From Phycisphaerales bacterium (lineage in GTDB: Bacteria > Planctomycetota > Phycisphaerae > Phycisphaerales > SM1A02), in the NCBI GenBank assembly GCA_018883105.1, contig VEQS01000003.1:1-42314 (forward strand): 42,314 nucleotides of DNA. Direction: 5' to 3'. The notes under the pieces were generated by a model, which had not been told where the DNA came from, made no database searches, and saw nothing but the letters and a program-made list of their open reading frames with translations. Positions within the stretch are counted from its first letter, which is position 1. Each line of letters begins with the position of its first letter. Both the position numbers and the translations under genes were made by a program. Below are positions 15,827 to 33,123 of the stretch, one piece after another.

Positions 15827-15830
15827 CGCC

Positions 15831-17519
15831 ATGCGCGATGCGCCGAACCTGAACCTCGCGTGGACATCGCTTGCGGCCGAGGAATGCCGGCGGCTCGGGG
15901 TGCGCCACGCGGTGGTGAGCCCGGGTTCGCGCAGCGCGCCGCTCGCGGTGGCCTTCGCGCGGCAGCCGGGCATCGAGGTGCACGTCGCCCACGACGAGCG
16001 TGGCGGCGCCTTCATGGCGCTTGGCATCGCGCAGGCGACGGAAGTGCCGGCATTGGCCATCATGACGAGCGGCACCGCGGTGGCGAACGCGCTTCCTGCC
16101 GCGGTCGAGGCGCGCATGGCGCGCGTGCCGCTCCTCGTGTTCGCAGCCGACCGGCCGCCGGAGCTTCGCGACTGCGGCGCCAACCAGTCGATCCCGCAGG
16201 CGGGGCTCCTCGACGGCGCGGTGCGCTGGTCGGCGGACCTGCCCTGCCCCACGACGGAGGTTCCCGCCGAGTACGTGCTCTCGACCGTCGACGAGGCGTT
16301 TGCGCGTGCCTGCGGACTGTCCGGCGGCCATGCGGGTGCCGTGCACCTGAACTGGCAGTTCCGCGAGCCCCTGGCGCCGGAGGAGCGGGCATGGGACCGG
16401 GCATGGCTTGGATCGATCGCGCGCTGGACGCGCGGCGGTGCCCCGTGGCGCACGACGCTGTCGGTCGAACCGGAACCCCTGGCCGTCGACGACGGCATCG
16501 TGGTGGCTGGCCTGGGCGCTGACCGATGGCTGCCGGGGTCCTGGCGCGGGACGGTGCTCGCCGATGCCGCAAGCGGCAGAGCGGACGCCGGCCGCGTGGG
16601 CGCAGACCTGGTGCTGCGCACGGCCGCCGACTGCGTGCCGCTTGCGGAGGCGCTCGCCCCGCCGTGCATCACGATGGTGGGCGGCGGCATCGCCTCCAGG
16701 CGGATCGGGGAATGGGTGGCGCGGCAGCCGTGCCCGGTGGTCACCGTGGGCGCGGGCGATCCGCGCCAGGATCCGAGCCATCGCGCGGCACTCGCGGTCT
16801 CGGGCGGCGTGACGCTGGTGGCCGGACGTGGACTGCGCGCGCATCCGGCGTGGACGCGCGCGATGCGCATCGCGACTGCGGCCGCCGCGCGTGCGCTCGC
16901 CGCGGACACCCGGCTCACCGAACCCACGGCGATCGCGACGACGATGGCAGCGGTGGCAGGCGCGCGGTGCGGCACGGTGTTCCTCGGGTCTTCGATGCCG
17001 GTGCGCGATGCCGATTTCATGGCGGTCGCCCCGCCCAAGGGCTGGACGACCGCGGCGAATCGCGGGGCAAGCGGGATCGACGGCCTGATCTCGACGGCCA
17101 CCGGCCATGCGGCAGCGAGCGGTGCGCCCGTGCTCGCGGTGGTCGGCGACGTGAGCGCGCTGCACGACCTGAATGCCCTGCAGCTGGCCTCGACGCTCGA
17201 CGTGCCGCTCGTGATCCTGGTCCTCAACAACGACGGCGGCGGCATCTTCCGGTACCTGCCGATCGCCCGGCATGCGGACGTGTTCGAGCGCCTCTTCGCC
17301 ACGCCGCACGGCCGCACGTTCGCGCCGGTGGCGCGTGCGTTCGGGCTCGCCGCGGAGTCGCCGCGCACCCGCGCGGCGCTCGGAACCGCGGTGCGGCGGG
17401 CACTCCGGCGCCGCGGGGCCACCCTGATCGAAGTGACGTGCACGCGCGAGGCGAGCGAGCGCGCGCGTGCCGAGGCCGTCGCTGCCGCCGATGCGGCGCT
17501 GCGACGTTCATTCCGGTGA
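15831..17519 (+). CDS. menD: SEPHCHC synthase MenD
   Basis: 562 residues. This ThDP- and Mg-dependent enzyme joins the succinic semialdehyde unit from 2-oxoglutarate to isochorismate to give SEPHCHC. The N-terminal isochorismate-binding segment is VVSPGSRSAPLAVA. The catalytic Glu is E56 in AHDERGGAFMALG. The motif TSGTAVANALPAAVEA follows, and the C-terminal ThDP/metal motif is GDVSALHDLNAL...NNDGGGIF near residues 444-470. The length matches the family (550-580). The start is the ATG at 15831, 4 nt after the menF stop; the frame is open further upstream but only inside menF. The next gene, menH, begins 7 nt after its stop, so the two are cotranscribed. Confidence 0.94.
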   Translation: MRDAPNLNLAWTSLAAEECRRLGVRHAVVSPGSRSAPLAVAFARQPGIEVHVAHDERGGAFMALGIAQATEVPALAIMTSGTAVANALPAAVEARMARVPLLVFAADRPPELRDCGANQSIPQAGLLDGAVRWSADLPCPTTEVPAEYVLSTVDEAFARACGLSGGHAGAVHLNWQFREPLAPEERAWDRAWLGSIARWTRGGAPWRTTLSVEPEPLAVDDGIVVAGLGADRWLPGSWRGTVLADAASGRADAGRVGADLVLRTAADCVPLAEALAPPCITMVGGGIASRRIGEWVARQPCPVVTVGAGDPRQDPSHRAALAVSGGVTLVAGRGLRAHPAWTRAMRIATAAAARALAADTRLTEPTAIATTMAAVAGARCGTVFLGSSMPVRDADFMAVAPPKGWTTAANRGASGIDGLISTATGHAAASGAPVLAVVGDVSALHDLNALQLASTLDVPLVILVLNNDGGGIFRYLPIARHADVFERLFATPHGRTFAPVARAFGLAAESPRTRAALGTAVRRALRRRGATLIEVTCTREASERARAEAVAAADAALRRSFR

Positions 17520-17526
17520 TCAGCCG

Positions 17527-18246
17527 ATGCATCGCGTGACGCTCGTGCACGGGTTCCTCGGCGCGCCCGAAGACTGGGACGGCGTCGCGGCGGCGCTCGG
17601 AGGCACCGTGCGCTGCGACCGCGTGGACCTGCGCTCGCTCGGCTGCGGATCGGTGGCCGCGGCGGCGGAGCGGCTCTCCGCGCACCTGGCGCGCGAGGCG
17701 CCCGGCGTGCTCGTCGGCTATTCGCTCGGCGGGCGCCTGTGCCTCGCCGCCGCCGCGATGCGCCGGCTGACGATTCCGCTCGTCCTGCTCTCCGCAAGTG
17801 CGGGCATCGAGGACGCCGATCAGCGCGACGCGCGTGCCCGCGAGGATGACGCGCGCGCCGGGGCGATCCGGCGTGACGGCTTGCCGGCCTTCGTCGAGCG
17901 CTGGTACGGGATGCCGATGTTCGCGCGCCTGCGGACGATGCCGGACTTCGCGTCGGTGCGTGACCGACGCGCCCGCGGCGACGGCGAGTTCTGGGCGACG
18001 TGCGTCGCGGGGTGCTCGCCCGGCCGTTCGGCCGGCGCGTGGGGCGTGCTTCCGTCGCTGCCGCACGGCTCGGCGTTTGCGGTCGGCACCGAGGACGATC
18101 GCTATAGTCTGCTTGCCGATCGCGTCGAGCGGGAGGCCACGCACGTGCGCGTTGAGCGCATCGCCGGCGCGGGCCATGCGCTCCCCATCGAGGCCCCCGA
18201 GCGCTGCGCAGCGCTGGTCGAACACGCACTCCGGAACACCCCATGA
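17527..18246 (+). CDS. menH: SHCHC synthase MenH (alpha/beta hydrolase)
   Basis: 239 residues. MenH eliminates pyruvate from SEPHCHC to give SHCHC. It has the alpha/beta-hydrolase fold: an oxyanion segment [12 protein letters not shown] at the N-terminus, the nucleophile elbow GYSLGGR with S66, and the catalytic His in [12 protein letters not shown] (H217). An acid in the VGTEDD segment probably completes the triad. The size is slightly below E. coli MenH (252). The start is the first ATG after the menD stop and opens the expected VTLVHGF strand. Its stop overlaps the menB start (ATGA at 18243-18246), so translation is probably coupled. The position between menD and menB makes the assignment firm, although sequence alone would only say alpha/beta hydrolase. 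Confidence 0.88.
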
Positions 18247-19115
18247 CCGCCAAGCCGCCCGTCGCCAAGCCATCCACCGAGACCGCCGAGCGCATCCGCC
18301 CCGCCCTCGACTGGCGCGAGGTGGACCTTGGGTTCAGGGAAGTGCGCTGCCACGTGGCCGAGGGCATCGCGAAGATCACCATCAACCGCCCCGAGGTGCG
18401 CAACGCCTTCACGCCGCGCACCGTGGAGGAGATGCGGAAGGCGCTCCTGGCCGCGAAGGAGGATCGGTCCGTCGGTGTCGTGATCCTGACCGGCGAGGGC
18501 GAACGCGCCTTCTGCGCCGGCGGCGACCAGCGCATCCGCGGCCACACCGGATACCGGTCCGAAGGCGGCAGCGAGATGCTCAACGTGCTGGACTTCCAGC
18601 GCGAGATCCGCACGTGCCCCAAGCCCGTGGTGGCCATGGTCGCCGGATGGGCGATCGGCGGCGGCCACGTGCTGCACATGATGTGCGACCTCACCATCGC
18701 GGCCACCAACGCCCGCTTCGGCCAGGTCGGGCCGCGCATGGGGAGCTTCGACGGCGGGTACGGCGCCAGCTACATGGCGCGCATCATCGGCCAGAAGCGC
18801 GCCCGGGAGATGTGGTTCCTCTGCCGCAGCTACTCCGCCGAGGAGGCGCGCGACATGGGCCTGGTGAACGCGGTGGTCGGCGTGGCCGAGCTCGAGGAGG
18901 TCACCGTGCAGTGGTGCCGCGAGATGCTCGCGAACTCGCCGACCGCGATCCGCGCGCTCAAGGCCGCGCTCAATGCCGACTGCGACGGGCAGGCGGGTCT
19001 TCAGGAACTCGCCGGCATCGCCACGATGCTCTACTACATGTCCGACGAGGCGAAGGAGGGCCGCGACGCGCAGCTCGCCAAGCGCCGTCCCGACTTCCGC
19101 AAGCACGCGCCGTGA
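18243..19115 (+). CDS. menB: 1,4-dihydroxy-2-naphthoyl-CoA synthase MenB
   Basis: 290 residues, crotonase superfamily. MenB closes the second ring of OSB-CoA to form DHNA-CoA. Visible motifs are [32 protein letters not shown] (substrate and oxyanion region), [17 protein letters not shown] (oxyanion hole), [20 protein letters not shown] and [19 protein letters not shown]. The C-terminal stretch [19 protein letters not shown] is essentially diagnostic for MenB among crotonases. The length agrees with E. coli MenB (285). An SD-like AGG is not evident; translation is probably coupled to menH by the ATGA overlap. The stop overlaps the GTG start of menA (GTGA). Confidence 0.96.
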
Positions 19116-20044
19116 ACGGGGCGGGCGCCCAGCCGCACCCGGCCCCCGGTGCCCGCGCGTGGATCGGCGCGATCCGCGCGAAGACGCTCGGTGCCTCGCT
19201 CTGTCCGGTGGCGATGGGCGCCGGCCTTGCCTGGCATGATGGCGCGTTCGCGTGGATCCCGGTGGTCGCCGCGCTCGCCGGCGCCGGGCTGCTGCAGGTG
19301 GCAAGCAACCTGGCGAACGACCTCTTCGACGGCCTGCGCGGCACGGACTCCGGAGCCCGGATCGGGCCGGTGCGCGCGGTGGCGAGCGGCGCGATCTCGG
19401 CACGAGCGATGGCCGTCGCGCTGGCGCTGGTGCTGGCGGCGGCCGCGGTCCCGGCGGCCTGGCTCTCGATGCATGCGGGCGCGTGGTTTGCGGTGATCGG
19501 CGTGGCCGGCGCGGTGAGTGCCGTGGCCTACACGGCGGGACCGATGCCGCTCGCCTATGTCGGGCTCGGCGACCTCTTCGTGTTCGCGTTCTTCGGACCC
19601 GTGGCGGTGGCCGGCACGCGCGCGGCCTGCGACGGCACCTGGAGCGGCGAGGCGGCGTTCCTGGGAATCGCGCCCGGGGCGATCGGCATGTGCCTGCTGG
19701 CCACCAACAACCTGCGCGACCGCGTCGGGGATGCGGAGAGCGGCAAGCGCACCCTCATCGTCCGGTGCGGCGAGCGATTCGGCCGTGCGCTCATCGCCAC
19801 GTGCCATGCCGCGGCAATCGCCGTCCCGGTGGCGACGTGGGCCGCGTGGCAGCTGCCGGCCGGGGCCATGGCTGCGTCCGCGGTGGCGGCCGGATTCGTG
19901 CCGGTGTCGGTCGCCGTGCTGCGCGGGCGCGACGGTACGGCGCTCAATCGAACGCTCGCCGGATTCGGCGCGATGCTCTACGCCTACGGCGTGGCGTTCG
20001 CGGCGGGACTGGTGCTGACGCCCGGTGCGGGGGATGCGTCGTGA
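19112..20044 (+). CDS. menA: 1,4-dihydroxy-2-naphthoate polyprenyltransferase MenA
   Basis: 310 residues, integral membrane UbiA-family prenyltransferase. It attaches the polyprenyl tail to DHNA, giving demethylmenaquinone. The two aspartate-rich Mg-diphosphate motifs are visible: [16 protein letters not shown] (near residue 66) and [15 protein letters not shown] (near 200). Between and after them lie several hydrophobic helices (for example [18 protein letters not shown] and [15 protein letters not shown]), as expected for 8-9 membrane segments. It begins with GTG at 19112, overlapping the menB stop as GTGA; the frame is open further upstream but only inside menB. Its stop overlaps the menC GTG in the same way. 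The family is certain, and the DHNA substrate follows from the operon. Confidence 0.92.
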
Positions 20045-21033
20045 CGGACGTGCGCGTGCGCATGCTCCGGGTGCGCTTTCCGGTTCGGGAGGGCGATCGT
20101 CCGGTCATCGGCGTTCCCGCGCGCGATGCGGTCTTCGTGCGGCTGGATCGCGATGGACGCTCAGGGTTTGGCGAATGCGCGCCCCTCGGCGGCGGGGATG
20201 CGGCGCTTGGAGAGTGCGAACGTGCGCTTGAGGCGTGGGCATCGGACGGCGCAACTGCCGACGCCGCCACGCGATTGCCGTCGCCGGCATGGTTCGCGGC
20301 GTCTGCGGCAATCGAGACGCTCGCCGGATTCGGTGCGGCGCCGGGAGCCCCCGTCGAATCAGCGTCCTACTTCGGCGCGGGTCCCGCGGCACTCGACGAC
20401 GTGGCGATCGCCCGCCTCCGCCATGGTGCCGTGATCAAGGTGAAGATCGGTCGCGCGCCTGCGGCCGAGGAACGGCGGATGCTCGAGCGCATCCTGCGCG
20501 AGATCCCAGGCACTCTGCTGCGCCTCGACGGCAACCGAAGCATGCGGCTCGATGACTGCGTCGCGCTCGTGCACGGACTGCCGGTGGAGCGGTTCGAGTA
20601 CCTGGAAGAGCCGGTCGCCGATCCAGCCGACCTCGGGCGTCTTCGGGACCGCACCGGGATCAAGTTGGCCCTCGACGAGCTCGTCCTCGATGCGTCGACC
20701 GAGGCATGCGACCTGCGCGACCGGCTGGGCGCCGGCGGCGGCGCGTGCGCCTGGGTGATCCGCCTCTCCCGCACCGGATCGCTCGACGAGGTGCGCCGCA
20801 CCATGCGCATCGCCGCCTCGCGCGGATGCGATCCCGTGCTGTCCACCGCGTACGAAAGCTCGTGGACGATCCGGCTGGCCGCGCACCTCGCGCATTCGAT
20901 GAATTCCAGGGGGCGGCCACACGGCCTGGGCACGGCGGAAGTCCTGGAAGCGGACGCGTGCGCGCCCGCCACGCTTGCCTCGGGACGCGTGCCGTGCGGG
21001 CCGCTCCCCGTTCCGCTCGAGGGTCGATGGTGA
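20041..21033 (+). CDS. menC: o-Succinylbenzoate synthase MenC
   Basis: 330 residues, enolase superfamily. MenC dehydrates SHCHC to o-succinylbenzoate. The KxK motif (VIKVKIG, K133 and K135), the metal ligands D163 (LRLDGN), E190 (YLEEPV) and D212 (LALDE) and the capping-domain N-terminus (SGFGECAPL) are all present. The expected second catalytic lysine, which normally lies in a (V/A)xIKP strand after the third metal ligand, is instead R241 in WVIRLSRTGSLDE. The rest of that segment (TGSLDEV) aligns well, so this looks like a true substitution. The start is GTG at 20041, overlapping the menA stop; an in-frame ATG nine codons on (MLRVRF) would cut the first strand. The stop overlaps menE. The identity is firm from the operon; activity with Arg is open. 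Confidence 0.88.
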   Translation: MTDVRVRMLRVRFPVREGDRPVIGVPARDAVFVRLDRDGRSGFGECAPLGGGDAALGECERALEAWASDGATADAATRLPSPAWFAASAAIETLAGFGAAPGAPVESASYFGAGPAALDDVAIARLRHGAVIKVKIGRAPAAEERRMLERILREIPGTLLRLDGNRSMRLDDCVALVHGLPVERFEYLEEPVADPADLGRLRDRTGIKLALDELVLDASTEACDLRDRLGAGGGACAWVIRLSRTGSLDEVRRTMRIAASRGCDPVLSTAYESSWTIRLAAHLAHSMNSRGRPHGLGTAEVLEADACAPATLASGRVPCGPLPVPLEGRW

Positions 21034-22265
21034 GCGGTCCCGGACCGGTGGTCGCGCTCCGCGTGCGCCCGGGCGTCGATCCGATGCCGTGGCTGCGCGA
21101 ACTGTGGCGACGCGGCACCACGGTGCTGCTTGCCGCCGATGCGATGCCAGACACGGCGCGTGCCGGCATGATGGCGGCTGCCGGGACAAGCGAGGAGATC
21201 GATGCCGCGTCCGTGCCGATCGCCTCGTCCGACGGCACGCCGCTTCGTGCCGCCGACCATCCGGACGCGGCCGGCGTCCTGGTATCGACGAGCGGCAGCT
21301 CCGGCACGCCCCGCCTCGTCGAGCTCTCGCTGGCTGCGCTGGTGTCGAGCGCCGAGCGGGGTGCGACGGCCGTCCCGTTCGGGCCCGGGGACACGTGGCA
21401 TGCCTCGCTGGCGCCGCACCACGTCGGTGGCTTGATGCTCCACGTGCGCGCCGCCGTCCTCGGCGGCGCCGTGCGGCATGCGCCACTTCCGCGCACCTGG
21501 GCCGAGGTCGATGGATGCACCCACGTGTCGCTCGTGGCAGCGCAGCTCGCCCGGCTGCTCGAGGATCCCGCGGGGCCGCCGCGAACGCTCAAGGCCGTGA
21601 TGCTCGGCGGCGGACCGAGCCCCGCCATGCTCCGGCGCGCGGCCCTGTCGCGCGGGCTGCCGCTCTTCGTCACCTACGGCATGACCGAGTCCGCCTCGCA
21701 GGTGGCCACGTGCCGGCCGGCGATGGCCGATGCCGACACCCTTGCGGGCCCGCCGATCCCCGGCGTGCGCATCGAGGCGGACTCGGTTGCGGCGGATGGC
21801 ACCGGTGAGCTCACGGTCGACGGCCCCGTGCTGGCGCGTGCCATCATCGACGGCGGCCGACGCCTTGCATTGACCCGCCCGCATCGCACGCGAGACGCCG
21901 GATTCATCGATGCCCTCGGACGCATCCACGTGGTCGGCCGCCTGGATGCCGTGATCAACTCCGGGGGACGCAAGGTGCACCCCGAGTCGATCGAGCGCAC
22001 CCTCTGCTCCGTGGCCGGCGTGCGCGCCGCGTGTGTCGTCGGCGTCGCGCATCCGCGCTGGGGGCAGCGGCCGGTGGCGTTCGTCGACGCCGCGGAAGCC
22101 GCCGCCGCCGCCATCGACCGCGCGCTGCGTGCCGTGCACCCGCCGCACGAGATGCCCGACGCGATCCTCCGGATGCCGGATGACGAGGCCGGTGCGATGA
22201 AGCCGTCGCGGGCCCGGCTTGCCGCGCGCCTCGCCGCCGGCGAGCGATTCGACGCGTTCAGCTGA
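21027..22265 (+). CDS. menE: o-Succinylbenzoate-CoA ligase MenE
   Basis: 412 residues, ANL superfamily (AMP-forming acyl-CoA synthetase). MenE activates OSB to OSB-CoA. Motifs: P-loop STSGSSGTPRLVELS, the A5 motif YGMTESAS, the hinge GRLDAVINSGGRKVHPESIE, and a C-terminal catalytic Lys in GAMKPSRARL. At 412 residues it is compact compared with typical MenE (450-490); the N-terminal domain is the shortened part. The start is ATG at 21027, overlapping menC by 7 nt; GTG at 21030 is a possible alternative. It is the last gene of the operon. Its 3' end overlaps the convergent thioesterase gene by 8 nt. Confidence 0.92.
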   Translation: MVSGPGPVVALRVRPGVDPMPWLRELWRRGTTVLLAADAMPDTARAGMMAAAGTSEEIDAASVPIASSDGTPLRAADHPDAAGVLVSTSGSSGTPRLVELSLAALVSSAERGATAVPFGPGDTWHASLAPHHVGGLMLHVRAAVLGGAVRHAPLPRTWAEVDGCTHVSLVAAQLARLLEDPAGPPRTLKAVMLGGGPSPAMLRRAALSRGLPLFVTYGMTESASQVATCRPAMADADTLAGPPIPGVRIEADSVAADGTGELTVDGPVLARAIIDGGRRLALTRPHRTRDAGFIDALGRIHVVGRLDAVINSGGRKVHPESIERTLCSVAGVRAACVVGVAHPRWGQRPVAFVDAAEAAAAAIDRALRAVHPPHEMPDAILRMPDDEAGAMKPSRARLAARLAAGERFDAFS

Positions 22266-22689
22266 TCGTCGAGGTCGCCGCCTGCGACGCCGCCAGCAAG
22301 GTCCGAAGGCGCTCCGGCAGTCCGATCGCGCGCCCGGACGCGGGGTCGACCGAAACACGCCGCACGCGCACGGCGATCGCGACGCGTCCCCCCAGCTCCA
22401 TCGCCCACGCAAGCGTGAAGCTGGTCTCGCCGACGCCGACGCCGGCAAGGCGCATCACGACCCGGTCGCCGACGCGGACGGGGCACGAAAAGTCGGCCTC
22501 GCAGTGCACGACCGGCGTCGGCGCAAGCATGCCTTCGAGCATCTCGCGGAGCAGGATGCCGCCACCCTCGAGCCAGCGTTCGAACGACTCCTGCTCGAGC
22601 ATGAAGGCGTTCGGGAAGAAAATCACGCCCGCGGCATCCGAGTGCGACAGCCGGATGGTCACGGATTCCTGGAGGCGGCCGGCATTCAT
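22258..22689 (-). CDS. Hot-dog thioesterase, probable DHNA-CoA hydrolase
   Basis: 143 residues, 4-hydroxybenzoyl-CoA thioesterase family (single hot-dog fold). The active-site segment LSHSDAAGVIFFPNAF (about residues 15-30) has the D-x-x-G arrangement of the family. It is followed by EQESFERWLE and a VHCEADFSCPVRVGD strand. Enzymes of this type hydrolyse 1,4-dihydroxy-2-naphthoyl-CoA in cyanobacteria and plants, the step missing between MenB and MenA in the adjacent operon, so that role is likely here. It is on the opposite strand and converges on menE. The start ATG overlaps the stop of the upstream methyltransferase-like gene (TGAATG), but a -10 box 6 nt upstream may give it its own transcript. 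A truncated paralogue lies at 23182-23379. The family is firm; the substrate is inferred from context. Confidence 0.8.
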   Translation of the reverse strand: MNAGRLQESVTIRLSHSDAAGVIFFPNAFMLEQESFERWLEGGGILLREMLEGMLAPTPVVHCEADFSCPVRVGDRVVMRLAGVGVGETSFTLAWAMELGGRVAIAVRVRRVSVDPASGRAIGLPERLRTLLAASQAATSTIS

Positions 22690-23402: not shown

Positions 23403-23430
23403 CGGCGGCCTGCGCGATCATCGGCCGCCG
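23403..23430 (-). terminator. Possible hairpin at end of glycosyltransferase gene
   Basis: CGGCGGCC and GGCCGCCG form an 8-bp stem with a 12-nt loop around the stop codon of the glycosyltransferase gene. There is no T-run, so this is a weak call. Confidence 0.25.
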
Positions 23431-24344
23431 CGCCGGGCGAGCAGCTCGTGGACGTAGCCGACCTTGTAGGCACGCCGGACGCGGGCCTCCGTGATGGCTG
23501 CCGACGGCCCATGGCGAAACGAATCGACCACGGATCGGACGACGCACTGCAGGTTCTGGCTGAGCAGGCAGGCACGCGACCATCGCACCCGGATCCGGCC
23601 GCAGGCGCGGTCGAAGTACGCGGCGGACCTTCCCATGCGGCCCGACATCCGGATGACTTCCTTGCCGTCGATCCGGGAGGTGTCGAAGTGGTGCAGCACG
23701 GCGGCGGCGTCTCCGCAGGCTCCGACGATCCTGAAGCCCATGCCGGCCAGCTGCTCGGAAAACAGCGTGTCGTCGAAGAAGCCGAGGGACTCCGGACCCG
23801 GACCGAGCAACTCGTCGAATCCGTGGACGCGGGCGAGCACGGAGCGCGCGAAGCACATGTTGGCCCCGACCATCCGCCGCGGAGACGCGAAGTCGACCTC
23901 ATGGGTCGATGCCACGAAGCCCATCCGGCGTTCCAGCGGTGTTCCGCGCATGGCGACCGCGAGGTGCGGCGGAATCCGGACTTCACCTGCCACAGCATCC
24001 GCGGCACCGGACAGGATCGGCCGCGACATGGACTCGATCCACGTCGGCGGCACGCGCACGTCGTCGTCCGTCCAGAGGAGGACGTCACCGCGCGCCTCCA
24101 GGATGCCGCGGTTCCGTGCACGGGACAGCCCGGGCCGTGGCTCGGCGACGGAGCGGATCGGAAACGCACCGCCGCCAACCCCGTCCAGGACGTGGCGGGT
24201 GTGGTCGGTCGATCCGTTGTCGACGACCAGCGCATCGACCTCGGCGCCCGCCGGCACGACACATCTCAGGATGGTCTCAAGCGTCGCACGCAGGCTGTCC
24301 GCCCGGTTCCGCGTGCAAACGATGACGGACACGACCCTGGGCAC
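23418..24344 (-). CDS. Family 2 glycosyltransferase
   Basis: 308 residues, GT-A fold, inverting type. The N-terminal nucleotide-binding strand is VVSVIVCTRNRADSL, followed by ALVVDNGSTDHT and GLSRARNRGI. The metal/UDP site is WTDDDV (D93-D95), and FFDDTLFSEQL near residue 190 probably carries the catalytic acid region. No strong membrane helix is visible, so it is soluble or peripheral. The start is GTG at 24344, 10 nt after the stop of the autotransporter gene, which suggests cotranscription. The acceptor is unknown. Possible acceptors are surface polysaccharide or the autotransporter passenger, by analogy with the glycosylated autotransporters TibA and AIDA, whose transferase is also a neighbour (those are heptosyltransferases of another family). 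Confidence 0.85.
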   Translation of the reverse strand: MPRVVSVIVCTRNRADSLRATLETILRCVVPAGAEVDALVVDNGSTDHTRHVLDGVGGGAFPIRSVAEPRPGLSRARNRGILEARGDVLLWTDDDVRVPPTWIESMSRPILSGAADAVAGEVRIPPHLAVAMRGTPLERRMGFVASTHEVDFASPRRMVGANMCFARSVLARVHGFDELLGPGPESLGFFDDTLFSEQLAGMGFRIVGACGDAAAVLHHFDTSRIDGKEVIRMSGRMGRSAAYFDRACGRIRVRWSRACLLSQNLQCVVRSVVDSFRHGPSAAITEARVRRAYKVGYVHELLARRGGR

Positions 24345-24354
24345 GGCTGCGGGA

Positions 24355-27300
24355 TCAGAAGGGTATCTGGATCCCGGCCCTGCCGCCGTACACCTGCGTG
24401 TCGGAGAGGAACATCCCGTTGAACGAGGCGAACAGCGTCAGTCCGTCCGGCAGCGCCAGCTCGACGCCGGCCTCGACGCTTCCGCCGTAGAGCGTCTCCA
24501 CGTCGCCGTAGACCGAGATGGGCGGCAGAGACGTGAACGGGTTGGTGGCGGTGACGCCCCAGTCGCCGACCGGCACGAACGCCGTGAACGCTGCGCCGAC
24601 GAACGGCGTGATCACCGAGCGCCCCGAGCGGATGCCATCCATGTACCGCGCTCCCACCGAGGGCTGCAGCGCGGACGCCGACTGGCTGCCCACGGCCAGG
24701 TTGAGGCTGCCCGCGCCGGACTCGGTGTAGGACCCCTGGTTGAAGTAGTTGTAGGCCACGCGCACGTAGGGCGACAGGTACGAGTCACCGCCCGCGGGCA
24801 GGTTGAAGCCCGTCTCGCCCATGAACGACGCGGACCACGCGTTGCTGCTCGAGGTGGCCGTGCGCACCACGCCGGGCACGTAGATGTTGCGCGTGCGGTC
24901 GATCATGGTGTACGCACCCGTGACGGCGCCGGAGAGGTACCACTCGCCGCGATCGGGCACCCAGCTGCCGTACATGCCGAAGTCGACGCCGTTGAGCGTC
25001 ATGGACTCGTCGACCAGGCCGCCGGTCACGCTGACGGAGCCCGGGATGTACCCGACGAACCCGCCCAGGATGCCGCCGTCGCCGACGACCGTGTCCACGC
25101 CCGCCGCCACGTTTCCGAGCGTCGAGTCGTAGGAGGTCTGCGCCCAGTTCTGGTTGCTGAACGAGCCGGTGAATCCGAAGCCGCGTGCCCAGCCGCGCAT
25201 GCCCTCGTCGGGCGTCGGCCCGTTGAGCTCGGCGCCGAAGGCCTTGCGGCGCGTGGTGGCGACCGACTGTGCCACGGCGGTCGAGCGGGGTCCGCCCGTG
25301 CCGCGCTGCCGCGGCGGCGCCGTGGGAGCGGTCATCTGCGGGCGCAGCTGCATGAGGCGCTCCATCGCAAGGTCGCCCGCCTCCGACATTCCGAGCATCA
25401 GCGTGGTGGGTAGTGCGTAGGGGTTGGCCGGGGCGGAGACGGCCACCACCGAGCTCGCGTAGGCCGCGGGACTGGTCTGCAGCAGCAGCTGGGTGGCGAC
25501 GAAGTCCGTGTCGCCCGTCGAGGTCTGCGCCAGGAGGTTCATCGCGGCCGCGGACTGGTTGACCTGCTGGTTCTGGACGACGCCGACGTTCGCGTTGCGG
25601 TTCACCGTGGTCCCGCCAACCTGGACCGGCACGACGACGTTCGTGTCCGTGGTGCCGGGAACCGGCAGCGGATCCGGGCCGCCGATGCCGAGGATCGAAA
25701 CCGAGAAGGCGGTGCCCGTGTATCCCACGGTGAAGCCCGCGCCGAGGAAGCGCGTCTCGCCGCTCTGGTTCAGCGCGCGCGTGGTGGGGAGCCCGGTCAC
25801 CGGGTCGATCGTGACCACGTTGACCGTGCCGAAGGTGCCGTTGAGCCCGCCCGTCGCCGACACCACGGTGTAGGTGTCGGTCACGCCGGGCGTGGGAATC
25901 CAGTTGCCGCCCGAGTTGTCGAACACCGTCGGGTCGAAGACCAGGCTCGCGGTCGAGCTGCCGGCCGTGAACGATCCGCCGACGGCCAGCGCGTCGGCGA
26001 CGCCGGTGCCGCCAGAGGCGGAGAGGAAGTACGACTGCAGCACGGAGGATGCTGCGAGGGCGGCGTTGCCCGTCACGTTGAGGACCGAGGTCGCCGACAC
26101 GCCGCGATCGCCGAGTTCCAGGCGGCCGTCGAACCCGGAAGGTCCGGCGATCGAGCCGATCGTGCCGATGCCGCCGAAGGTCACCGGTGCCCCGCCGGCG
26201 ACCGAGGACAGGCCTGCCGAACCGAGGTTTGCGCCGTCGAGCGTGAGCCGGGCGCCGTCCGTGAGCGAGATCGCGCCCGAGAAGGTCGATGCAGTGCCGT
26301 CGCCGACCGTCAGGTCGATGTCGTCGAGGTTCAGCGTGGCGGAGGCAGCCGAGAGGAGCCCGCCCTGCGCATTGATGGCGGCGGTCGGCGTGCCCCCGGA
26401 CAGGTTCACCGTGCCCTCGACGGTCAGGGACTGGGCGTTGCCGAACGCGAGGGCGGTGCCGATCTCGGCATCGATGCCGCCGGCCGCGCTGCCGTCGAGC
26501 ACGAGACCATCGAGGCCGACGGATCCCTGCGTGTTGATCGTCACGTCGACGCCGTCGACGATCGTCAGGCCATCGAAGCTGCCCGTGAGCGCGAGGGTCA
26601 TGCCCGCGGTGGCCCCGCCCGTCCGCGAGAGCTCCAGGTTGCCGGTGCCGCTGGCGAGGCCGGAGAGCGTCAGTGCGGCGGCGGCGGCGCCGGAGGTGCG
26701 GAAGGTCGCGTTGCCCGCGAGCACCAGGGCTCCGTCGTAGCTGGCGGCGGTGGCGCCCGTGTAGTCGACGGTGGCCGCGGCATTGAACGTCATCGCGCTG
26801 ACGCCGTTGAGCCATGCGACGTTGCTGACCGACAGGCTGGAGCCGGTTTCCATCCGAACTCCGCCGGTGAACGTGCTGGCGGCGCCATCGACGGCCAGCG
26901 CGATGTTCGAGAGCGAGAGCGTCCCGGCGCCCGACATGGTCCCGGTGAGCGTGAGCGACGACGCCGGGCCGGTGCCGGAGATCGAGGCCACGCCCGTCCC
27001 GACCGACAGCGCCATGCCCGACGTGACGGCCGTCGCGCCCGTGTACGACAGCGCGGTCGCGGACCCGTCGGCATTCATCGCCAGGCTGGTGGCCTCGGTC
27101 AGCCACTCCGCATTGGAGACCGTGAGCGTCGATCCGCCGCGGAGGCCCACCGCGCCGGTGTACGTGCTGGTCGCTCCGCCGATCGTCACGGCCATTCCGC
27201 TCAGCGTCAGCGCCCCGCCGCCCTGCATTTCGCCGTCGACGGCGAGCGTCGTCAGCGCGCCGCCGGTGCCGGTGCCGACGATCGTCGACGTGTCGGCGAC

Positions 27301-28743
27301 GACGAGGTTCTGCGAGGCACCGATCGTCAGGCTCGTCCCGGCAGTCAGGGTGGCAAGGTCGAGCGTCAGGCCCGTCGAACCGATGGACTCCTGGGTGTCG
27401 ATCCGGACGTTGGCCGTGTCGACGATGGTCTGCCCGGCGAATCCGCCGGTGAGCGCAAGGACGATCGTCGGATCGGCCGTGGCGGCCGAGTGCTCGAGCG
27501 TCAGGTCACCGGTGCCGGACACCGCGCCCGAGAGCGTGAGGGTGCCTACCGATGCTCCCGAGGTGCGAATGGCGGCATTCGCGCCGAGCGTCAAGGTGCC
27601 GTCGAACGTCGCAGCGGAGGTGCCCGAGTACTCGACGGCGGCCGCATCGTCGAATTGCAGGGCGCCGAGCTGGTCGACGAACACGGCATTGGCCACGGCC
27701 AGCGAAGAGCCGGTGTCGAGCGTGATGCCGCCGGTGAACGTGGACGTGGCGCCGCTGCCGATGGTCATCGCAATGTCAGTCAGGGCGAGCGTCCCGGTGC
27801 CGGACATCGAGCCATCCACCGTGAACGTCTGCGGCCCGCCCGAGCCTGCCATGGCCGACGTGCCCTCGACGGCGAGGGCCTGCGCCGCGTCGATCGCGAG
27901 GGCGGTGCCGGCGGTCAGCGTGCCGCCGTCGATCGTGAGGCCGGCGGACCCGATCGACGCCTGCGTGTCGATCTGGACGTTGGCGCCGTCGATGATGGTG
28001 CGGCCCGTGAAGCCACCCGCCAGGCCAAGGGTGATCACTGGCGCCGCCGTCACGCCGGTCGCGTGCTCGAGCCGAAGGTCGCTCGAACCGGAGATCGCGC
28101 CGGTGAGCGCGAGCGTGCCGGTGTCCTGCGTGGTCGAGATCACGGCCTCGCCGGGGGTGGCGCCGGTGGACAGGACGAGCGCACCGGCGTAGGTGACGGC
28201 CGTCGCACCGCCCCAGGTGAGCGTCGGGGTGCCGGCGTTGCTGTTCAGCTCGATCGACGTCGCGCTCGTGAACCAGTCGGCCTGTTCGATGACAAGCGCG
28301 CCGGGGCCGCTCACGACGAATGTGCCGGCGAAGCCGGTGAGGAAGCTGTTCTGCCCGAGGGTCAGCGTGCCGCCCTGGACGCCGATGCTGCAGGTTCCGG
28401 TGGCGATGTTCCCCGCATGCGGCACCGCGCTGGCGATCGTGAGGGAGGTCCCCGTCAGGTTGAACACGCCGATCGCATTGTTCATGCTCCAGGAGTTCGT
28501 GAACGTCCCGGGGGCCGTGACCTGCAGGATGCCCGCCGTCCCGTCGCCCTGCACGAAGGACAGCGTGCCAGCCGTCTCGAGGTCCGCAGCCGAGATCGCG
28601 GTCGGCGGATCGCCGCCGGTCACGACGGTCTGCGCGCTCGAGGAGCAAGCCAGCCACGTCGACAGCGAGGCCGCGGCCACGGCCCGGCCCCGGCACCGGA
28701 ACGGCGAACAGACAGACCGCGAGCGTGGAAAGCGCGCTTCCAT
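24355..28743 (-). CDS. Autotransporter with a beta-helical repeat passenger and C-terminal barrel
   Basis: 1462 residues, type Va secretion. The signal region runs to about residue 37 (arginine-rich start, hydrophobic AVAAASLSTWLAC, then SSAQ). The passenger, to about residue 1050, is Gly/Ala/Thr/Ser-rich with short repeated strands (LTLSG, TGSGxL, STFTGGI), typical of a right-handed beta helix. It includes longer repeats containing GGFxGxTIxDxANVxIDTQ. A linker/helix region follows. The last 280 or so residues (about 1180-1462) form an outer-membrane barrel with GWARGFGFTGSF, alternating aromatic strands and a terminal Phe (GIQIPF). No protease or lipase site is seen, so an adhesin-like role is plausible. 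The start is ATG at 28743; a TTG at 28761 is possible. It is followed closely by a glycosyltransferase gene. Confidence 0.85.
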   Translation of the reverse strand: MEARFPRSRSVCSPFRCRGRAVAAASLSTWLACSSSAQTVVTGGDPPTAISAADLETAGTLSFVQGDGTAGILQVTAPGTFTNSWSMNNAIGVFNLTGTSLTIASAVPHAGNIATGTCSIGVQGGTLTLGQNSFLTGFAGTFVVSGPGALVIEQADWFTSATSIELNSNAGTPTLTWGGATAVTYAGALVLSTGATPGEAVISTTQDTGTLALTGAISGSSDLRLEHATGVTAAPVITLGLAGGFTGRTIIDGANVQIDTQASIGSAGLTIDGGTLTAGTALAIDAAQALAVEGTSAMAGSGGPQTFTVDGSMSGTGTLALTDIAMTIGSGATSTFTGGITLDTGSSLAVANAVFVDQLGALQFDDAAAVEYSGTSAATFDGTLTLGANAAIRTSGASVGTLTLSGAVSGTGDLTLEHSAATADPTIVLALTGGFAGQTIVDTANVRIDTQESIGSTGLTLDLATLTAGTSLTIGASQNLVVADTSTIVGTGTGGALTTLAVDGEMQGGGALTLSGMAVTIGGATSTYTGAVGLRGGSTLTVSNAEWLTEATSLAMNADGSATALSYTGATAVTSGMALSVGTGVASISGTGPASSLTLTGTMSGAGTLSLSNIALAVDGAASTFTGGVRMETGSSLSVSNVAWLNGVSAMTFNAAATVDYTGATAASYDGALVLAGNATFRTSGAAAAALTLSGLASGTGNLELSRTGGATAGMTLALTGSFDGLTIVDGVDVTINTQGSVGLDGLVLDGSAAGGIDAEIGTALAFGNAQSLTVEGTVNLSGGTPTAAINAQGGLLSAASATLNLDDIDLTVGDGTASTFSGAISLTDGARLTLDGANLGSAGLSSVAGGAPVTFGGIGTIGSIAGPSGFDGRLELGDRGVSATSVLNVTGNAALAASSVLQSYFLSASGGTGVADALAVGGSFTAGSSTASLVFDPTVFDNSGGNWIPTPGVTDTYTVVSATGGLNGTFGTVNVVTIDPVTGLPTTRALNQSGETRFLGAGFTVGYTGTAFSVSILGIGGPDPLPVPGTTDTNVVVPVQVGGTTVNRNANVGVVQNQQVNQSAAAMNLLAQTSTGDTDFVATQLLLQTSPAAYASSVVAVSAPANPYALPTTLMLGMSEAGDLAMERLMQLRPQMTAPTAPPRQRGTGGPRSTAVAQSVATTRRKAFGAELNGPTPDEGMRGWARGFGFTGSFSNQNWAQTSYDSTLGNVAAGVDTVVGDGGILGGFVGYIPGSVSVTGGLVDESMTLNGVDFGMYGSWVPDRGEWYLSGAVTGAYTMIDRTRNIYVPGVVRTATSSSNAWSASFMGETGFNLPAGGDSYLSPYVRVAYNYFNQGSYTESGAGSLNLAVGSQSASALQPSVGARYMDGIRSGRSVITPFVGAAFTAFVPVGDWGVTATNPFTSLPPISVYGDVETLYGGSVEAGVELALPDGLTLFASFNGMFLSDTQVYGGRAGIQIPF
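26500..28050 (-). repeat. Imperfect repeats within the autotransporter passenger
   Basis: Three related blocks lie near 27940-28030, 27375-27460 and 26510-26600. Each encodes a variant of G(G/S)F.G.TI(I/V)D..(N/D)V.I(D/N)TQ.S(I/V)G..GL. They are separated by unequal distances (about 570 and 860 nt) and embedded in further shared strands, consistent with duplication of beta-helix segments. Confidence 0.6.
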
Positions 28744-28773
28744 GATGGGTTCCGTCGGCAAGGCGGGGCGAGA

Positions 28774-28907: not shown

Positions 28908-28913
28908 TATGTT
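28908..28913 (+). promoter_or_regulatory. Candidate -10 box, aminomutase operon
   Basis: TATGTT, 7 nt before the ATG at 28921, with no Shine-Dalgarno between. An alternative in-frame ATG at 28909 lies inside this box, which argues for the start at 28921. Confidence 0.4.
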
Positions 28914-28920
28914 CGAACCC

Positions 28921-30372
28921 ATGGATTACTCCTACGCCCCCACCGAGCGCGAGAAGGCCTTCCTGGCGAAGGTCGAGGACACCCGCCACGAGCGCGACAT
29001 CATCAACGGCCTCGACCCCTTCCTGAGCGAGAAGGTGCCGCCGGACATGATGGGCCTCTACACGCCGCAGGAGCTGGTGCAGCTGCGCGTCCTCAAGGGC
29101 ACCGAGCGTGACCTCGAGAAGCGCATGCCGGTGAAGGTGACCCGGCACTACTTCGAGCTCGCGAAGCAGAGCGCCCCGCTGCGCCGCCTGGTGAAGGCCG
29201 ACCCGGCCGAGACCATGGACCTCGCCGGCAGCGAGGACCCCGGCTTCCAGATGGACTACAGCCCTGTCGAGGGCATGCTGCACAAGTACGAGATGGGCCT
29301 GCTGTACGTGATCTCCACGTGCTCGGCCCACTGCCGCTTCTGCTACCGCGAGGAGCTGATCGCCCGCAAGGAGATCAAGCGCCAGGACGGCACGGTGGCC
29401 AAGAAGGGCCTGGCCAACATTCCCGACGTCATTGGATACGTCAAGCGCTTCAACGCCGAGGTCGCCGCCAACGGCGGCCGTCACCCGGTCTGCGGGCGCG
29501 AGAAGCTTCGCGAGATCCTGATGTCCGGCGGCGACGCGATGGTGCTCCAGAACACCAAGATCGCCGCGTGGCTGGCGGCCTTGGCTGAAGCCGGCATCGA
29601 GTCGATCCGCATCGGCACCAAGGAAATGGCCTTCTACCCGCAGCGCTTCGACGAGGCGTTCGTGGCCATGCTGGACAACTTCCACAAGGCGTACCCCGAG
29701 GTCGGCCTGCACATCGTGGTGCACTTCGAGCACCCCGACGAGTTCCTGGCCAAGGACGCCGGCGGCGAGTACGTGCGCGACGGCCAGGGCTTCCTGCAGT
29801 GGGTGCCCGCGACCGGCGACGCGATGCGCCGCCTGGCGTCGCGCGGCTGGCTGAGCGTCGAGAACCAGTCCCCGATCATCAAGGGGATCAACGACGACCC
29901 GGACGCCCTGCGCATCCTGCAGCGCGAGTTCAAGCGCGCCGGCGGCGAGAACCACTACTTCTTCTGCGGCCGCGACATCATCGCCTACCGCGCCTTCAAC
30001 GTGCCGATCGAGCGCGCCTGGCAGATCCTCAACGAGTCGCAGAAGGGCCTTTCCGGCGTCGAGCAGCACGCGCGGCTCTCGATCACCCACTACAAGGGGA
30101 AGACCGAGGTCAACGCCGTCACCAACAAGCCGATCCCGGGCCTGAAGGGCAGCGAGAACGGCGTGGTGATCTTCAAGATCCTGCGCAGTTCCGGCGCCGC
30201 CGCCGACAAGGGCAAGGTCTGCATCGTGGGCCGCAACCCCGAGTCGCTGTGGTTCGACGGCTACAGCGACCGCGTGCTCTTCGACGAGGCCGGGCTGTAC
30301 GACTACTCGCGCGTCAAGATGGCGCGGGTGACGCACGCCGCGCCGCCGGTGCCCGCGCCCGCCTGCCGATGA
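28921..30372 (+). CDS. KamA-family radical SAM aminomutase (lysine 2,3-aminomutase-like)
   Basis: 483 residues. The [4Fe-4S]/SAM motif is CSAHCRFC (C134, C138, C141). The barrel motifs of the lysine 2,3-aminomutase family follow: ILMSGGDAMV, IRIGTKEMAFYPQRF, VVHFEHPDEF and NQSPIIKGINDD. The likely PLP lysine is in HYKGKTEV. Such enzymes move an amino group from C2 to C3 by a PLP-bound radical. The cysteine context (CRFCYREE) differs from classical enzymes (CRHCTRR), and there are inserts, making it longer than the usual 410-470. Of the two aspartates that hold the lysine side chain in the clostridial enzyme, I can align only the first with confidence (FCGRD); near the second I see no Asp. The substrate may therefore not be lysine. 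It heads an operon; its stop overlaps the next start (ATGA). Confidence 0.85.
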   Translation: MDYSYAPTEREKAFLAKVEDTRHERDIINGLDPFLSEKVPPDMMGLYTPQELVQLRVLKGTERDLEKRMPVKVTRHYFELAKQSAPLRRLVKADPAETMDLAGSEDPGFQMDYSPVEGMLHKYEMGLLYVISTCSAHCRFCYREELIARKEIKRQDGTVAKKGLANIPDVIGYVKRFNAEVAANGGRHPVCGREKLREILMSGGDAMVLQNTKIAAWLAALAEAGIESIRIGTKEMAFYPQRFDEAFVAMLDNFHKAYPEVGLHIVVHFEHPDEFLAKDAGGEYVRDGQGFLQWVPATGDAMRRLASRGWLSVENQSPIIKGINDDPDALRILQREFKRAGGENHYFFCGRDIIAYRAFNVPIERAWQILNESQKGLSGVEQHARLSITHYKGKTEVNAVTNKPIPGLKGSENGVVIFKILRSSGAAADKGKVCIVGRNPESLWFDGYSDRVLFDEAGLYDYSRVKMARVTHAAPPVPAPACR

Positions 30373-31079
30373 TCGACAAGCGCCTCGCGAGCGTGCGCGA
30401 GGCCGTGGCCGACGTCTTCGACGGCGCCACGGTCATGATCGGCGGCTTCGGCGAGGCCGGCAGCCCGATCGAGCTGATCCACGCCCTGATCGACCAGGGC
30501 GCGAAGGACCTCGTGGTCGTGAGCAACAACACCGGCACCGGGCTCGTGGGACTCGCGGCGCTGCTCCGCGCCGGCCGGGTGCGAAAGGTCGTCTGCTCCT
30601 TCCCGAAGACCGCCGGGTCGACCGTCTTCCCCGATCTCTACCGTGCCGGCAAGGTGGAGCTCGAGCTGGTGCCGCAGGGAACGCTCGCCGAGCGGATCCG
30701 CGCCGGAGGCGCGGGCATCGCCGCCTTCTACACGCCGACCGCCGCCGGCACGCCGCTCGCCGAGGGCAAGGAGGTACGGGAGTTCGGCGGCCGCGAGCAC
30801 GTCCTCGAGCACGGCCTGCGCGCCGACTTCACGCTCATCAAGGGACGCACCGCCGACACGCACGGCAACGTGATGTACCACCGCACCGCGCGCAACTTCG
30901 CGCCGATGATGGCGACCGCCGCGGCGGTGACCGTCGTGCAGGCGGCGGACGTGGTCCCCGCCGGTGCGCTCGACGCCGAGTCGATCGTGACGCCCGGGAT
31001 CTTCGTCGACCGCGTGGTGCACGTGCCGGAGCCCGCGCTCGAGTCGGCACTCAACGAGGCGGGGGCGAGCTACCCATGA
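30369..31079 (+). CDS. 3-oxoacid CoA-transferase subunit A, PcaI-like
   Basis: 236 residues, family I CoA-transferase alpha subunit. Visible are the glycine loop MIGGFGEAGSP (about 23-33), VSNNTGTGLVGLAALL, KVVCSFPK, ELVPQGTLAERIRAGGAGI and a TPGIFVDRVV end. The combination GLAALLRAGRVRKVVCSFP and the TARNFAPMMATAA stretch resembles 3-oxoadipate CoA-transferase PcaI more than the acetoacetate or ScoA types; this is a judgement from memory of those sequences. With subunit B it moves CoA from succinyl-CoA to a 3-oxo acid. The ATG overlaps the aminomutase stop, and the stop overlaps the subunit B start, both as ATGA, so the three are translationally coupled. Confidence 0.87.
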   Translation: MIDKRLASVREAVADVFDGATVMIGGFGEAGSPIELIHALIDQGAKDLVVVSNNTGTGLVGLAALLRAGRVRKVVCSFPKTAGSTVFPDLYRAGKVELELVPQGTLAERIRAGGAGIAAFYTPTAAGTPLAEGKEVREFGGREHVLEHGLRADFTLIKGRTADTHGNVMYHRTARNFAPMMATAAAVTVVQAADVVPAGALDAESIVTPGIFVDRVVHVPEPALESALNEAGASYP

Positions 31080-31774
31080 GCGCGGCACCCGGCACGAAGC
31101 CTGCCGCGCCCGAGGCCATCGGCTGGACCCGCGAGGGCATCGCCGAGCGCGTCGCACAGGACATCCCCAACGGCTCGTACGTGAACCTGGGAATCGGCAT
31201 TCCCGAGCTCGTCGCGCGCTACGTGCCCGCCGGGCGGACGCTCGTCTACCACACGGAAAATGGGCTCCTGGGCATGGGCCCCTCCCCTGCCGCCGGCGCG
31301 GGCGACCCCGAGCTCATCAACGCGGGCAAGCGCCGCGTCACCATGATGCCGGGCGCCGCGTTCTTCGACCAGGCCACCAGCTTCGCGATGATCCGCGGCG
31401 GGCACCTTGACCTCAGCGTGCTGGGCGCGCTGCAGGTGGCGGCGAACGGCGACCTCGCCAACTGGTCGACCGGCACCGACGACGCGATTCCCGCCGTCGG
31501 CGGGGCGATGGACCTCGTGGCCGGCGTGAAGCGCGTGTTCGTGATGACCACGCACGTCACCAAGGAAGGCACGCCGAAGCTCGTCGAGCGCTGCACGTAC
31601 CCACTCACGGGACGCGGCGTGGTGACGCGCGTCTACTCCGACCTTGCCGTCATCGACGTGACGCCGCAGGGCTTCCGGCTGGTGGAACTCGCCCCCGGCG
31701 TGGGCTTCGACTACCTGCAGGAACGGACCGGCGCGCCGATCCTGCAGGACCGCACGCGCCAGGCAGGAGCCTGA
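31076..31774 (+). CDS. 3-oxoacid CoA-transferase subunit B, PcaJ-like
   Basis: 232 residues, beta subunit carrying the catalytic glutamate E61 in YHTENGLLGMGPSP, which forms the enzyme-CoA thioester. Other family segments are YVNLGIGIPELVARY, GAAFFDQATSFAMIRGGH and the end DYLQERTGAPI. GDLANWSTGTDDAIPAVGGAMDL matches the PcaJ form; ScoB and OXCT proteins instead read NWxxPGKMVKGxGGAMDL. It is therefore more likely specific for a 3-oxoadipate-like or other functionalised 3-oxo acid than for acetoacetate. The start overlaps the subunit A stop; the aminotransferase start follows 2 nt after its stop. Confidence 0.87.
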   Translation: MSAAPGTKPAAPEAIGWTREGIAERVAQDIPNGSYVNLGIGIPELVARYVPAGRTLVYHTENGLLGMGPSPAAGAGDPELINAGKRRVTMMPGAAFFDQATSFAMIRGGHLDLSVLGALQVAANGDLANWSTGTDDAIPAVGGAMDLVAGVKRVFVMTTHVTKEGTPKLVERCTYPLTGRGVVTRVYSDLAVIDVTPQGFRLVELAPGVGFDYLQERTGAPILQDRTRQAGA

Positions 31775-31776
31775 CC

Positions 31777-33123
31777 ATGGCAACCCCCGCAACTGCGCAC
31801 GCATCCGCACCCGTCCCGACCGCCAGCCGCAGCGCCGAGCTCTTCGAGCGCGCCAAGAAGGTGATGCCGGGCGGCGTGAGCCGCAACACCGTGCTCTGGT
31901 CGTCGGTGCCGCCCTACGTGGCGCACGGCGAGGGCTGCCGCGTCACCGACATCGACGGCGTCACGCGCATCGACTTCGCCAACAACGTGGCGTCCCTGAT
32001 CCACGGACATGCGTACCCGCCGGTGGTGCAGGCCGTGGCCGCGCAGCTCGCCAAGGGCACCGCGTTCATGATGGCCACCGAGCAGGAGGTGCTGCATGCC
32101 GAGCACGTCTGCTCGCGCAGCGGCGGCTTCGACCGCATCCGGTTCGTCAATTCCGGCACCGAGGCGGTGATGGCGGCGCTGAAGGCCGCGCGCGCCTTCA
32201 CCGGCCGGCCGAAGATCGCCAAGGTCGAGGGCGCCTACCACGGCGGCTACGACTACGTGGAGACCAGCCAGGGATCGACCCCCAAGGACTGGGGCAGCAT
32301 CGACCACCCCAACCGCGTGCCGCTCGTCCACGGCGCGCCTCAGTCGGCAATGGAGGACGTGGTGGTCATCCCCTTCGACGACGTCGACCGCTCGATCGCG
32401 CTGCTTGACGAGCACCGCGCGGACCTCGCCTGCGTGCTCCTTGACCTGATGCCGCACCGGGTGGGCCTCAAGCCCGCATCGAGGGCGTTCGTGCAGGCCA
32501 TGCGCGAGTGGGCGTCGCGAAACGGCGCGCTCCTCGTCCTCGACGAGGTCATCACCTTCCGCACCGAGTACGGCGGCGCGCAGCAGGGCTACGGCGTGCA
32601 CGGCGACCTGACCGCGCTCGGCAAGATGATCGGCGGCGGCTTCCCGGTCGGCGCGCTCGCGGGCCGGGCCGAAGTCATGGAGGTCCTCAACCCCGGCGCG
32701 CCGAAGCTCCTCTTCCCGCTCTCGGGCACGTTCTCGGCGAACCCGGTCACCATGACCGCGGGCCGAATCGCGATGGAGCACTTCGACCGCCCGGCCGTCG
32801 CGCGACTCAACGCGCTCGGCGACCGGGCACGTCACGGGATCGCCGAGGCCATCGCACGCACCGGCGCACCCGCGAGCGTCACCGGCGGCGGATCGATGTT
32901 CCGCGTGCACATGAAGGCCGCCGTGCCCGCCAACTACCGCGAGGCCTACGCGACCCCCGAGGAGAACAAGCGGCTCAAGCTGATGCTCGAGCACCTCTTC
33001 GCCGAGGGCTTCCTGATGGTGGGCACGTGCACGGGCATGCTCTCGACGCCGATGACGGAGTCGGAGGTCGACGCGCTGGTGGCGGCGATGGAATCCGGCT
33101 TCCGGCGGATGGCGACGGCCTGA
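31777..33123 (+). CDS. Class III aminotransferase, beta-amino-acid/GSA type
   Basis: 448 residues, PLP-dependent fold type I. The PLP lysine is K283 in [15 protein letters not shown], and the pyridine-nitrogen Asp is in VLDEVITFR. Substrate-side motifs include [33 protein letters not shown] and [11 protein letters not shown]. The overall pattern fits the branch that holds glutamate-1-semialdehyde aminomutase and the beta-phenylalanine and other beta-amino-acid transaminases. It is not a likely hemL: the PGGVSR...VPPY region and the operon context favour a catabolic beta-transaminase. In this operon it would take the beta-amino acid made by the KamA-like enzyme and yield the 3-oxo acid used by the CoA-transferase. 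It is the last gene of the operon and converges with the thiolase gene (24-nt gap). Confidence 0.82.

Follow-up and report, generated by a model that had tools for sequence, protein, structure and literature searches.

The window, that is, the whole 42,314-nt stretch analyzed here, is one contig (C204) of a freshwater Phycisphaerales metagenome-assembled genome (MAG; G000, GCA_018883105.1; 2.76 Mb in 255 contigs, 86.9% complete, 6.14% contamination). It carries a gene for a type Va autotransporter that is followed on the same strand, after a 10-nt spacer, by a gene for a GT2-family glycosyltransferase (Table 1). Both genes and their adjacency are real, and the meaning of this adjacency is ordinary. 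The autotransporter is a genuine, conventional member of its type, which very probably came to lie beside a polysaccharide-type GT2 gene through local rearrangement, without the two forming a glycosylation pair. A first-pass annotation had described the same gene order and spacing, which we confirmed, and had proposed that the neighboring transferase glycosylates the autotransporter passenger. This proposal found no support, because the pair is not conserved, the relatives of the GT2 enzyme are of polysaccharide type, and the model of the AAH/TibC glycosyltransferases was not matched. Tight spacing by itself is not enough for an autotransporter glycosylation module.

The autotransporter ends in ...GIQIPF, with Phe as the terminal residue, and residues 1185-1442 of its C-terminal part matched PF03797 (E 2.9e-37) with a score of 129 bits, well over the cut-off of 26. 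Its fold was modeled for the C-terminal 899 residues with seven homologues, yielding a mean predicted local distance difference test score (pLDDT) of 70.7 and a predicted template modeling score of 0.54; pLDDT values were mostly 75-95 in the passenger and moderate, about 40-80, in the barrel. The barrel end of the model, with 12 long strands, matched the translocators of NalP, EstA, EspP, and AIDA-I, the top-scoring entries having Z scores between 27.0 and 30.0 (NalP 1uyn, Z 30.0, root mean square deviation [rmsd] 2.1, 279 aligned residues; AIDA-I 4mee, Z 27.0, rmsd 2.5, 283 aligned residues), and model residues 1-459 matched the passenger of pertactin (2iou_G, Z 19.4, rmsd 4.9, 396 aligned residues; 1dab, Z 18.2). 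The earlier description of a full type Va autotransporter with a terminal Phe was thus borne out. With these known proteins it shares the C-terminal barrel, the terminal Phe, the beta-helical passenger, and the single polypeptide, and it differs from them by its planctomycete host and by its passenger; no NCBIfam profile matched the protein at E values up to 1, and no Pfam profile matched the passenger at values up to 0.01. The reading frame could alternatively start at a TTG at 28761.

The passenger had been described as Ser/Thr rich and beta-helical. The beta-helix was recovered in the modeled part, and the Ser+Thr enrichment turned out to be moderate (24.4% in passenger residues 39-1150 versus 18.3% in the barrel). 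The same passenger residues contain seven N-X-S/T sequons. Internal repeats (e.g., residues 177-338 versus 372-530, 51% identity) emerged with segment-wise BLAST, while BLAST of the whole passenger against itself gave the self match alone. BamA, whose presence was to be expected with such a protein according to the first-pass annotation, is encoded on contig C177 (Omp85 domain and five POTRA stretches). The planctomycete host had been inferred correctly; the notion that an autotransporter is remarkable in such a host was overstated. Class-wide searches covered 397 genomes, evenly drawn from a larger group, with few candidates scored per genome (at most six for PF03797, five for GT2, and four for TIGR04414); PF03797 matched in 88 of these genomes at 1e-3 and passed its cut-off in 79. 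Within this planctomycete class, type Va autotransporters are thus common. A second autotransporter gene of the same genome (L071:2-2827 (+), G000:C62), cut at the contig start, encodes a protein 33% identical to the first over residues 541-1462 of the latter.

Conservation of the pair was assessed within the genus (14 genomes including the window's own) and among autotransporters at large. Orthologues with an intact barrel occur in 8 of the 13 other genus genomes (G001, G004, G005, G007, G008, G009, G010, and G011); G003 retains a barrel remnant at the same site, and in G002 a short contig carries pgl together with an adjacent N-terminal portion of the autotransporter gene. At the nine loci formed by the eight orthologues and the G003 remnant, the next gene downstream is either ruvX (four loci: G001, G004, G009, and G003) or a GH9 endoglucanase gene (five loci: G005, G007, G008, G010, and G011). 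Beyond the endoglucanase, ruvX and manC (both named from sequence reading) follow in four of the five cases, the G008 contig stopping inside the GH9 gene. Upstream, pgl was found at all seven loci whose contig extends there, those of G005 and G011 starting inside the autotransporter gene. In G006 and G013, the gap between pgl and manC is 468 and 439 nt, respectively, which is too short for an autotransporter. A GT2 match was found at none of the nine loci. The broader survey started from 109 distinct autotransporter-hit genes (E <= 1e-3, stop codon present), nine of which were dropped for having less than 1,200 nt downstream. Among the remaining 100 (36 with E < 1e-20; the weaker ones may be other barrels), a GT2-type profile within 1,500 nt of the autotransporter was detected in the window only; this profile was built from 23 sequences including the window's GT2 and covers this GT2 type. 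A conserved autotransporter-glycosyltransferase pair was rejected on these counts (0/9 and 1/100, the latter being the window's own). The site itself also differs, the window autotransporter lying between kamA and a menaquinone (men) block, versus pgl and ruvX-manC in the relatives. Neither pgl nor manC gave a match at 1e-20 in the window's own assembly, and the usual site could therefore not be inspected there.

Further observations came from the loci and records of relatives and other autotransporter carriers. A GH9 endoglucanase gene lies directly 3' of the autotransporter at L065, L066, L068, L069, and L070, recurring more than any glycosyltransferase seen; the one scanned (L070) gave CBM2, CBM3, and a dockerin match below cut-off. 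L107 and L108 were read by BLAST alone, the simple gene caller having produced shadow genes there. Three autotransporter records bear ill-fitting labels, i.e., Chitinophaga pinensis (L170, a contig of G009 and thus of the same genus), Rubrivivax (L174), and Acidimicrobiia (L175), and are probably mislabeled or misbinned MAG contigs.

GT2 enzymes constitute a GT-A family. The window's protein matched PF00535 at residues 6-124 (E 2.8e-23) and has an acidic DDD motif within LLWTDDDVRVP; its single-sequence fold was poor (pLDDT 41). The GTG at 24344 is the first ATG, GTG, or TTG past the preceding in-frame stop. A codon-bias gene caller favored a later GTG at 24257, which would cut into PF00535. 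For most class relatives the alignment begins at about residue 2-6 (for G379, among the best of them, at residue 25), and PF00535 itself begins at residue 6; 24344 therefore appears to be the better start. Spacing of about 10 nt is usual within operons, and the two genes are likely cotranscribed, judging from their junction, which by itself shows no functional link. The GC contents of the autotransporter and GT2 genes (0.697 and 0.710, respectively) are consistent with the window. GC at third codon positions (GC3) is lowest in the GT2 gene among the 22 window genes (0.86 versus 0.87-0.97 in the others); menE (0.87) and menD (0.88) lie close, so composition gives no verdict on the GT2 gene as foreign DNA.

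Relatives of the GT2 protein point to surface polysaccharides. In a protein comparison of 61 genomes including the window's own, the self match had an E of 1.8e-206, and 54 genomes (own included) matched something at 1e-3, as expected for a large family. The best match among the other 60 genomes was 1.5e-18 over 110 residues, that within the genus was 6.8e-10, and no orthologue was found in the 13 other genus genomes. Class-wide, 51 of the 397 genomes (own included) matched at 1e-15, the best relatives being those of G166, G379, G149, and G124 (E 3.2e-54 to 2.8e-51; 40-49% identity). Wider regions were taken for 8 of the 50 other genomes, and genes were listed for 6 (L154-L159). At these six loci the relatives adjoin further glycosyltransferases, judged from protein starts (one Pfam-confirmed: Glycos_transf_1, L154). 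Pfam identified ABC (ATP-binding cassette) transporter genes at L154, L156, L157, and L158 and a Polysacc_synt gene at L159; at L155, the single protein tested had no Pfam match, and the locus was judged by protein starts. The closest class relatives are thus found among polysaccharide-type genes, with an ABC transporter or flippase by Pfam at five of the six loci, a result that runs counter to the glycosylation proposal. At L156 (G149), the gene for a second GT2 relative shares 7 nt with that of an FkbM methyltransferase. The best NCBIfam profile for the window's GT2 was EPS_EpsD (NF041875; E 6.3e-23), far under its cut-off. The enzyme therefore belongs to the same family as the GT2s of exopolysaccharide and ABC-exported polysaccharide clusters, whose gene company its class relatives keep, but differs from them in lying beside an autotransporter and near a broken FkbM gene alone. 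A polysaccharide cluster is absent around it in the window, where its downstream neighbors are a truncated thioesterase gene and an FkbM gene with a deletion.

Several observations weigh against a chance neighborhood and would suit a dedicated O-glycosyltransferase instead, one that would modify the Ser/Thr-rich passenger while it is still in the cytoplasm, as AAH and TibC do, though as an unrelated enzyme. The 10-nt gap on the same strand and the chain of short overlaps farther downstream look operonic, the GT2 frame is intact, and the passenger is richer in Ser and Thr than the barrel. Remote NCBIfam matches of the GT2 include AglG-type (1.9e-13), AglJ-type (4.7e-4), PgfS (0.0095), and PglI-type (0.035) models, which belong to protein-glycosylation pathways. 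The best solved relative is 9jma, a PglI-type GalNAc(5)-diNAcBac-PP-undecaprenol glucosyltransferase (E 6.9e-7), and polypeptide N-acetylgalactosaminyltransferase 12 comes last among the solved relatives (E 0.0052), both being remote. Enzymes of the former kind build a lipid-linked glycan and do not modify protein directly, and such matches do not decide the GT2 substrate. A pairing that arose in this lineage alone would escape detection by comparison. We nevertheless consider a dedicated O-glycosyltransferase very unlikely, since the pair occurs in this genome alone among the autotransporter genes examined, the GT2 relatives lie in polysaccharide-type clusters, and the autotransporter itself is unmatched in NCBIfam.

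Comparison with the AAH/TibC family (BAHT, TIGR04414) argues in the same direction. The two arrangements share a glycosyltransferase gene adjoining an autotransporter gene. The window's enzyme differs in being a GT2, in having no TIGR04414 match, and in lying downstream of the autotransporter rather than preceding it. The published description states that TibC resembles GT-B enzymes, with iron held by four cysteines, and that AAH/TibC-type genes often have an autotransporter gene following (PMC4358343). The GT2 had 21 NCBIfam matches with E values up to 1, none of them to TIGR04414, and this profile had no matches in the 86.9% complete assembly. Membership of the GT2 in the AAH/TibC family was rejected for failing this profile, and AIDA-type acceptor repeats in the passenger were rejected likewise (NCBIfam gave none at E values up to 1, and none up to 0.01 in two orthologues). 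Recruitment of a GT2-family enzyme, in this lineage alone, to serve as the dedicated O-glycosyltransferase of the autotransporter, a convergent planctomycete counterpart of AAH/TibC, seems to us very unlikely.

Across the class, TIGR04414 was matched at 1e-3 in 46 of the 397 genomes. The match stayed under the cut-off in 45 of these, as it did in the E. coli control; G230 alone passed. Its AAH/TibC-type gene (L259:9048-10328 (+), G230:C14) scored 590 bits against a cut-off of 200. No autotransporter was recognized beside this gene in the 20-kb region read, a weak negative, as the profile of the window autotransporter family also missed the known autotransporter of G230. The PF03797 match of that genome is on another contig (L260:8011-11331) and has nine T5SS/PEP-CTERM repeat stretches. 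The G230 gene is a better place to seek glycosylated autotransporters in planctomycetes.

Downstream of the GT2 gene, the order is a truncated thioesterase gene, an FkbM-family methyltransferase gene, and an intact thioesterase gene, chained by 4- to 8-nt overlaps. Over 199 alignment columns, the DNA of the truncated copy is 73% identical to that of the intact gene; at the protein level the identity is 62% (residues 9-58 of 142), and the copy had no Pfam match. The FkbM protein matched TIGR01444 (E 7.1e-13) and, slightly under the cut-off, PF05050 up to profile position 73 of 173; relative to its uninterrupted G013 homologue, it carries an in-frame deletion of 66 residues. None of the relatives read showed the GT2-thioesterase-FkbM block, which is apparently unconserved and decaying. 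The two breaks could be due either to natural decay or to a fault in the assembly. With local rearrangement as the favored reading, the GT2 probably arrived in a small glycan cassette together with FkbM, now partly degraded as the breaks suggest. If still active, it would, judging from its relatives, act as a sugar transferase in the synthesis of a surface polysaccharide. The autotransporter would be exported by Sec and inserted by the beta-barrel assembly machinery, displaying its beta-helical passenger at the surface, a route consistent with the modeled fold and the BamA gene.

The two broken genes would also fit an assembly or binning artifact, in which sequences lying apart in the chromosome were joined into one contig. 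The fragmentation and contamination of the MAG, the position of the autotransporter off its site in the relatives, and the unmatched pgl and manC are compatible with such a joint. So is the distribution of the flanking blocks, the men block being present in G013, G006, and partly G001, whereas G004 and other genomes have the kam block, with both together at no locus read. Nonetheless, the autotransporter and GT2 genes are both uninterrupted, their GC contents agree with the window despite the low GC3 of the GT2 gene, and the blocks on either side are each of this genus, which makes an artifact improbable.

Table 1. Features of the autotransporter-GT2 region, in window coordinates
Feature	Coordinates	Strand	Basis or remark
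Type Va autotransporter gene, 1462 aa	24355..28743	-	ATG at 28743; PF03797; translocator fold
Probable signal peptide, residues 1-38	28630..28743	-	Read from sequence: hydrophobic stretch, then ...SSSAQ
Modeled passenger part, residues 564-1022, pertactin-like beta-helix	25678..27054	-	Structure search of model
Translocator beta-barrel domain, residues 1185-1442	24418..25191	-	PF03797 and fold match
Spacer from autotransporter stop to GT2 start, 10 nt	24345..24354	-	Read from sequence
GT2-family glycosyltransferase, 308 aa	23418..24344	-	GTG start; PF00535
Truncated 4HBT thioesterase copy, 79 aa	23182..23421	-	Overlaps GT2 stop by 4 nt
FkbM-family methyltransferase without about 66 internal residues	22686..23189	-	TIGR01444; alignment to G013 homologue
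Intact 4HBT-like thioesterase	22258..22689	-	Convergent with menaquinone block; weak thioesterase matches below cut-offs

The regions on either side carry metabolic genes. The menaquinone block spans 14465-22689, its gene names (menF-D-H-B-A-C-E) being taken from sequence reading. The intact thioesterase occurs in 4 of the 14 genus genomes (G000, G001, G006, and G013), always beside men homologues, and is a candidate 1,4-dihydroxy-2-naphthoyl-coenzyme A (CoA) thioesterase (MenI); it is not part of an autotransporter system. On the other side, the block at 28909-33123 comprises a divergent KamA-family radical S-adenosylmethionine gene, under every NCBIfam cut-off listed, followed by genes for two 3-oxoacid CoA-transferase subunits and a glutamate-1-semialdehyde-aminomutase-like aminotransferase. 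KamA is present in 9 of the 14 genus genomes, and the block resembles the Bacillus yod-kamA operon.

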